A DNA stretch of 53,433 nt. Origin: Halorubrum yunnanense. Lineage in GTDB: Archaea > Halobacteriota > Halobacteria > Halobacteriales > Haloferacaceae. Location of the stretch: positions 8,640 to 62,072 of the forward strand of contig NZ_JAODIX010000023.1 of assembly GCF_026586675.1 (NCBI RefSeq). Direction: 5' to 3'. The notes below the pieces were generated by a model. The model searched no databases. It was not told the DNA's origin and saw only the letters and a list, made by a program, of their open reading frames with translations. The position numbers and the translations under genes were made by a program. Below are positions 17,831 to 53,433 of this stretch, one piece after another (positions within the stretch are counted from its first letter, which is position 1; each line of letters opens with the position of its first letter).

Positions 17831-18238
17831 ATTTATAAGTAATCGAGAGGACGACTATTTATAAACCGAATTGCGGTGGCGCGAGCAGCACCGCGCGAGG
17901 GAGTGGGTCGTCCGGAGCAACGCGGAGGACGACAGACAGGGCGAGAGCGGAGCTCTCGCTTGCAACCGGCGCTACGCGCCGGTGACAGCGTGGCGCATAG
18001 CGCCACGGGCAGCCGGCGACTCCGCCGCCGGCGACGAGGCTGGGGAGGGGTGAGGCTGCAGTTGCGGGACGGGGCGTGACTCAAACGGGCAGTCGCGAGG
18101 ACGAAGCACGCTGCAGCAAGCACCGCAAGGAGCGAGTGTAACGAGCGACGGAGGAGCACAGCAAAGCGCGCGAGTCGTCGCGACTGGGGCTTTGGAGCCG
18201 TTTACCGGCGATTCATGAGGAGCGGTTTAAAAATAATC
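17831..18238 (+). repeat. Dispersed structured element, copy A
   Basis: A gene-free stretch with two TTTATAA boxes (17832-17838, 17858-17864), box GGTGGCGCG (17875-17883), GCGAGGGAG, then a hairpin with arms 17907-17913 and 17927-17933 enclosing the loop GGAGCAACGCGGA. Next come four hairpins with 7-8 bp stems at 17941-17959, 17965-17983, 17989-18007 and 18012-18032; the first three have 3-base loops. CGAGGCTGGGGAGG and GGGCGTGACTCAAA follow, then a long-range stem (18090-18098 with 18178-18186) and finally CTGGGGCTTTGGAG before a TTTAAAAATAA tract. The boxes recur in copy B with different stems that still pair. ORFs here lack coding character. Confidence 0.8.
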
Positions 18239-36534: not shown

Positions 36535-36956
36535 AATTTATAAGCGATCGAAGCGGTGGCGCGCCTCCGAGCGGTCGCCGCCGGCGACCGCGAGGAGCCC
36601 GCGAGGGAGTCAGTCGCCCGGAGCAACGCGGAGGGCGACTGACGAGGCTGGGGAGGCGTGAGGTCGTGCGGTCGCGGTGCGGGGTGGGACTCAAAGGGGC
36701 AGCCGTGAGGCGGGCGCAGGCGACGCAAGGACCACAGGGAGCGAGCCACGCGAGCGACCGAGGACCGCAGCGAGCGTACGCCCGCCTCACGGCTGGGGCT
36801 TTGGAGGTGTTCACCGCCGATCCGTGCTCGTCTATCGATAAGCAAGCAGCTGGGGCTTCGGAGGTGTTCACCGCCGATCCAGTATCAATCGTTTATAACC
36901 AAGCGACCGGAGCGTCGGAAGCCTTCGCCCCGTAGTCAACGACTTATAAGCAACCG
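36535..36956 (+). repeat. Dispersed structured element, copy B, with tandem 3' modules
   Basis: Begins with TTTATAA (36537-36543) and GGTGGCGCG (36555-36563). A hairpin with 9-bp arms (36571-36579, 36583-36591) and 3-base loop follows, then GCGAGGGAG, then a 9-bp hairpin (36611-36619, 36633-36641) with the loop GGAGCAACGCGGA, CGAGGCTGGGGAGG, GGGACTCAAA, and a 15-bp long-range stem (36700-36714 with 36781-36795). From 36792 there are two GCTGGGGCTT modules 57 bp apart, each with GGAGGTGTTCACCGCCGATCC, and a third degenerate module; each ends in an ATAA/TTATAA box (36837, 36892, 36943). No coding potential is visible. Confidence 0.82.
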
Positions 36957-53361: not shown

Positions 53362-53433
53362 CTTATAAATGGTGTAGTAAACGGTGCGGTGGCGCGCCCC
53401 GGTGAGCGGCCCTTCGGGCCGCGAGCCGACGGC
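53362..53433 (+). repeat. Dispersed structured element, copy D (5' part, cut by window end)
   Basis: Begins with CTTATAA (53362-53368), then GCGGTGGCGCGCC (53386-53398) and a hairpin with 7-bp arms at 53406-53412 and 53416-53422 around a TTC loop, followed by GAG. Copy B has the same order, box then GA then a triloop hairpin then GAG, but with different stem bases that also pair. The remainder lies outside the window. Confidence 0.68.

Follow-up and report, generated by a model that had tools for sequence, protein, structure and literature searches.

The window, a 53,433 bp stretch of the Halorubrum yunnanense genome, was found to contain two copies, A and B, of a dispersed element together with the beginning of a third from 53363. 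All three are members of one family, for which the window's genome returned 114 matches to R1, a covariance model that was built from 30 copies and describes the conserved 3′ core. A BLASTN search of this genome with only copy A as the query gave 50 matches. The preliminary description had made its reading of a dispersed family turn on the existence of such further copies. The features of the three copies were as follows, with the basis of each assignment in parentheses.

17858..17864, + strand: TATA-like box TTTATAA of copy A (sequence; clustering of the motif upstream of GGTGGCG in 44 genus copies)
17875..17903, + strand: 5′ domain X of copy A, with boxes GGTGGCGCG and GCGAGGGAG and hairpin P1, which is shortened in A (sequence; G·U and A·C counts in the X stem)
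17907..17933, + strand: second hairpin of copy A, GTCGTCC / loop GGAGCAACGCGGA / GGACGAC (sequence, folding)
17938..17988, + strand: double-hairpin module nested in copy A, GGCGAGAGC..GCTCTCGC plus CCGGCG..CGCCGG (14 places in the genome)
17990..18033, + strand: two extra hairpins of copy A, ahead of box 4 (sequence, folding)
18035..18048, + strand: box 4 of copy A, CGAGGCTGGGGAGG (sequence)
18077..18199, + strand: core domain Y of copy A, GACTCAAA ... CTGGGGCTTTGGAG, a long hairpin with tandem G·A internal loops (R1, 134.5 bits)
36537..36543, + strand: TATA-like box TTTATAA of copy B (sequence)
36555..36607, + strand: 5′ domain X of copy B, hairpin P1 with a tandem GA internal loop (sequence; X-stem counts)
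36609..36643, + strand: second hairpin of copy B, GTCAGTCGCCC / GGAGCAACGCGGA / GGGCGACTGAC (sequence, folding)
36643..36656, + strand: box 4 of copy B, CGAGGCTGGGGAGG (sequence)
36687..36808, + strand: core domain Y of copy B (R1, 114.2 bits)
36803..36919, + strand: 57-nt tandem tail of copy B, which repeats the 3′ arm GGCTGGGGCTT.GGAG (sequence)
53363..53433, + strand: third copy, TATA-like box and start of X, with its core Y at contig position 62127, past the end of the window (model match)

From 5′ to 3′, a copy in this genus consisted of the TATA-like box, domain X, core Y and, often, 57-nt tandem repeats. Domain X was ordered as GGTGGCGCG, a hairpin, GCGAGGG, a second and highly variable hairpin and CTGGGGAGG, and core Y was ~115 nt in length. 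The elements examined were ~250–420 bp long, which, as in IS6-type MITEs, is too short for a transposase. The arms of the second hairpin of copy A (17907-17913 and 17927-17933) and the stem CAGTCGCCC/GGGCGACTG of copy B enclosed the identical loop, and the long-range stem of copy A was CAGTCGCGA/TCGCGACTG. The stems around this loop and at long range that the preliminary description had reported were present in both copies, and its invariant boxes were all in place and in the same order. The extent that it gave to the shared copy held for the boxes and had to be amended at the 5′ end, as the sequence common to unrelated loci begins at GCGGTGGCGCG (17873 in A, 36553 in B) and not at the TATA-like box. 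The box itself was positioned, as had been suggested: TATA-like motifs were found 12–24 nt upstream of GGTGGCG in most of the 44 genus copies and none at -120 to -60. It could be a relic of a terminal repeat.

The insert at 17938-18033, made up of the double hairpin and the further hairpins, was present in copy A and absent from copy B. The double-hairpin module (GGCGAGAGCGRAGCTCTCGCTTGCA plus CCGGCG..CGCCGG) was nested in element stems in the window and also at loci L312-L321, and 11 of its 14 places in the window's genome were within ~200 bp of a core copy. The 57-nt tails of copy B and of L009, L010, L027 and L029 were near-identical within a locus and differed between loci, each unit repeating the 3′ arm GGCTGGGGCTTTGGAG and usually also TTTATAA. 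The cores of L134, L138, L166 and L180 had the usual outer ends and an unrelated inner part common to the four (e.g. GGTCGNCTGAGCGACCCCTAT ... ATATGTCGCTC), which indicates a swap of the inner module. In L008 and L028 an IS1341/TnpB-type transposon end (GACATCCTCCCCGCGCTGAAGCGCGAGGATTCC) adjoined the element 3′ of the core. Runs of N in the assembly were located inside the second hairpin (L004, L007, L009, L011, L020), so the elements break short-read assemblies and account for repeats that interrupt haloarchaeal assemblies.

A search of Rfam at the gathering score gave no match in the window or in the cores of 10 loci from other genera, in agreement with the earlier statement that no known RNA family fits. 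At E <= 1 the copy A stretch gave sub-threshold matches to unrelated models only, and a search for tRNA and tmRNA genes returned none.

Structure of core Y and the constrained strand

RNAalifold predicted core Y to be one long hairpin with 34 paired positions. Its loops were symmetric and of purines (GGG/GGG, GA/GA and a conserved A·A), its apical ladder was made of 2-bp steps alternating with G·A pairs, and these internal-loop motifs were conserved across the class. The outer stem was CTGAAAG/CTTTC, with CTCAAAG/CTTTGGAG in the window's genus, a swap from G-C to C-G at the genus level. A CRISPR origin was considered, as the start GGGACTGAAAG resembles a crRNA handle, and was rejected because it pairs with CTTTC and swaps with CTTTC by genus. 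A coding remnant was also rejected, since core length ranged from 100 to 128 nt in steps that are not multiples of three and the pairs vary freely.

In a class-wide alignment of 132 cores from 100 loci, which was fitted to the model and is hence biased towards it, 33 of the 34 core pairs had changed on both sides and 95.4% of 4174 cells were paired, compared to 36–43% when the partner was slid by 1–3 columns. Counting the second stem directly from the sequence, independently of the model, gave 1931 Watson-Crick cells out of 2025, with 41 G·T and 11 A·C. Covariation measures exceeded those of 500 out of 500 shuffles both class-wide and within the window's genome, and folding against dinucleotide shuffles gave z = -4.3 for copy B and z = -3.6 for copy A. 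The pairs therefore covaried beyond chance on one strand, as judged from shuffles and G·U/A·C counts, and the preliminary description of a dispersed non-coding family with compensatory changes was upheld. Core Y is one strand-specific fold maintained by selection.

The strand was judged from the counts of G·U and A·C. G·U (G·T) outnumbered A·C by 132 to 31 class-wide (p = 5e-16), by 35 to 4 within the window's genome (p = 3e-7) and by 12 to 2 in the domain X stem across copies. Two pairs supplied 63 of the 132 G·T cells, and the excess persisted without them (69:30 in the per-pair table). This excess argues that the + strand is constrained in an RNA-like manner and that the element is not a DNA palindrome. 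The constrained strand was the one given in the preliminary description, as an RNA predicts; single-stranded DNA is formally possible, and we know of no use of single-stranded DNA by IS6 transposition.

The same counts bear on a reading at the DNA level, in which the arms of a palindrome are copied by template switching or repair, or a cruciform is read by a DNA-binding protein, and the RNA has no role. Such a reading would accommodate the strong predominance of two-sided over one-sided changes, the perfect palindromic modules nested in the element and the fact that the elements are transposons in some lineages. However, arm copying predicts perfect palindromes, and strand switching or DNA repair acting on a palindrome should yield G·T and A·C equally, whereas both ratios were strongly skewed and the symmetric mismatched loops persist throughout the class. 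We consider a DNA-level palindrome unlikely.

Orthologous loci and neighbouring genes

The element was present at locus B in six species, with flanks of ~93% identity, and at the orthologous site of locus A in several species. At the locus B orthologs of other species the second hairpin had a different sequence that was still self-complementary. Changes in pairing at locus B were two-sided in 18 cases, one-sided in 6 and broken in 1, and at locus A the corresponding numbers were 32, 6 and 4. The large surplus of two-sided changes at orthologous loci suggests block exchange between copies besides stepwise compensation, which is a caveat for the event counts and not for the pairing. Neither A nor B had a clean empty counterpart in relatives, whose sites were occupied by the element or by another gene or had rearranged flanks. 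In L089, L091, L100 and L101 the interval orthologous to the site of copy A held a regulator-like gene without the element.

The copies were intergenic, and the orientations of the neighbouring genes, called with a simple codon-usage script and not taken from curated annotation, matched the background in all four classes. This absence of bias speaks against the element acting as a leader or terminator of an adjacent gene, and a riboswitch or leader element was rejected on this ground. It also weighs on a cis-acting terminator or 3′-end stabiliser of neighbouring genes, similar to REP/BIME, which the long stable hairpins between genes would suit and for which the inverted Y′-Y pairs would place a sense hairpin in transcripts entering from either direction. 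As a U-tract at the 3′ end was not seen either, we regard this role as very doubtful.

Distribution and terminal repeats

The element was detected in 51 of 52 genomes of the window's genus, 138 of 170 genomes of the family and 333 of 391 sampled genomes of the class (~85%), representing 76 of 86 genera, and in none of 85 more distant genomes from elsewhere in the phylum. Carriers included Haloarcula, Natrinema, Natronococcus, Halorussus, Haladaptatus, Halosimplex, Halobaculum and Halonotius. Plasmids gave three partial matches and phages none. Copy numbers per genome, which in the genus, family and class surveys are lower bounds (at least the number stated), lay between 1 and more than 100 in carriers, and the element was absent from some genomes. 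Most genomes of the window's genus had tens of copies; G042, G050 and G026 had one each, weak in two of them, and these genomes are natural near-knockouts of the family.

Copy number is also relevant to a multi-copy family of host ncRNA genes, whose small RNAs would act in trans with a host RNA-binding protein and for which the MITE ends would be a spreading route only. The positioned TATA-like box, the maintenance of the element and its pairing at orthologous loci, the class-wide internal-loop motifs and the lack of orientation bias, by which it is not a leader element, are all consistent with such a family. Against it, more than 100 near-equivalent copies would be unusual for a regulator, and the number varies from over 100 down to 1, and to zero in some genomes. 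This is a serious possibility, although on balance an improbable one.

In three genomes of other lineages (G122, G125 and G110) the element usually consisted of two inverted cores between the terminal repeats GGTACTGTTTAGATTAGCG / GGTAGTGTTTAGATAAGC. The gene for an IS6-type (PF13610) transposase in G110 was bounded by GTGTTCAGATAAG, as the element ends are, and a transposase locus of G122 had matching motifs on both sides. Terminal inverted repeats (TIRs) were recognisable at both ends of 26 of 28 entries from these three genomes and of 19 of 110 entries class-wide, with almost none in shifted control windows of the class-wide set. Perfect 8-bp target duplications (8/8) were found at 10 distinct insertions, compared to 15 of 2000 randomly paired ends of different copies. 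In several lineages the element is thus a MITE, mobile now or until recently, with IS6 (ISH14-like) ends and 8-bp duplications. At L238-L241 near-identical interiors occurred with two types of terminal repeat in varying combinations, which suggests that copies have exchanged sequence.

A search for IS6 ends in the window's genus was negative (0 of 41 right ends), and no target duplication was found there; as the ends are unrecognisable, a MITE origin in this genus rests on homology of the core. The preliminary description had set a structured family against a transposon. The structure was retained, and the transposon, an IS6-type MITE with TIRs and 8-bp duplications in several lineages, had not been foreseen; 'transposon' and 'structured RNA' are not alternatives for this element. 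The earlier reading was therefore partly supported, the class-wide span of the family being likewise unforeseen.

The terminal features also separate the element from PATEs and other IS605-type (TnpB-linked) elements, whose RNA would be an omega RNA. PATEs are abundant, palindrome-bearing elements of haloarchaea, and at least one, in the Halorubrum virus HRTV-DL1, is transcribed (PMC3119063, PMC10544981). However, the PATEs of Haloquadratum have neither TIRs nor target duplications (PMC3119063), both of which the element has in several lineages, and the PATE region of HRTV-DL1 (record OP630574) gave background scores only with model R2. This identity was rejected as largely refuted and highly improbable.

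Interpretation and known systems

We propose that A and B probably belong to a family of miniature elements that spans the haloarchaeal class, is RNA-structured, is a MITE with IS6 ends in several lineages and immobile in the window's genus, and is predicted to be transcribed and to function as a folded RNA. An IS6-type transposase would move the element in trans, and copies would be transcribed from the TATA-like box in the window's genus and elsewhere by read-through, with the folded RNA as the putative selected product. Its most likely role would be that of a stable hairpin limiting damage by, or controlling the decay of, transcripts that cross the element, with binding of a small RNA by a host protein as the second possibility. 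Copies in the window's genus would now be immobile, staying at orthologous sites and being homogenised as they exchange sequence. Of the two roles we thus favour the hairpin of an adapted selfish element, embedded in transcripts, over a family of ncRNA genes acting in trans. More speculatively, and we think rather improbably, the class Halobacteria may have an unnamed RNA at up to ~100 loci per genome that spread on transposon ends and is kept in place and folded by the binding of a host protein, that is, a mobile-element-derived RNA regulon.

The element is among the most widespread repeats of a whole archaeal class and appears to be unclassified as an RNA structure. The interiors of MITEs are usually not conserved. 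In this family conservation lies in the interior, which is under constraint as a folded single strand, and this poses directly the question of whether selection can act on a transposon passenger as RNA. The models, the coordinates and the ~100 copies per genome make the family testable in laboratory haloarchaea. Searches of the open literature with the boxes as strings returned unrelated papers only, and neither the RNA structure nor the class-wide range of the element was found in them.

To our knowledge, the sequence of the element is unrelated to those of ERIC/IRU, Correia (CREE) and NEMIS repeats. These are similarly short, intergenic and MITE-like, with an RNA able to form a long hairpin (PMC2649163, PMC10969869), whereas the element is archaeal and has class-wide covariation, a tandem G·A ladder, an additional 5′ domain and 57-nt tails. 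REPINs (PMC3116915) share inverted pairs of hairpin units and a high copy number, but their units are 20–40 bp compared to ~115 nt, and they have RAYT-linked tags in place of IS6 ends. The PATEs and SMRs of Haloquadratum walsbyi (PMC3119063) are transposase-free and of high copy number, and the insertions of SMR-A into PATE palindromes resemble the small palindromic modules nested in the element; PATEs differ in their IS605-type ends.

The closest likeness is to haloarchaeal MITEs of the IS6 family, with which the element shares TIRs, 8-bp duplications, the lack of a transposase and ends like those of IS6-type genes in the same genome. Archaeal IS6-like sequences are ~697 bp long, with TIRs of 14–17 bp and mostly 8-bp duplications, and ISFinder holds an IS6-type haloarchaeal MITE, MITEHarch3, the parents being ISH14/ISH29-like (PMC6807381). 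MITEHarch3 could belong to the present family, part of which may already carry a repeat name. The element differs from these MITEs in that its interior is conserved class-wide and covaries, and in that its ends are unrecognisable in the window's genus. It is best filed as a new, class-wide, RNA-structured MITE family.
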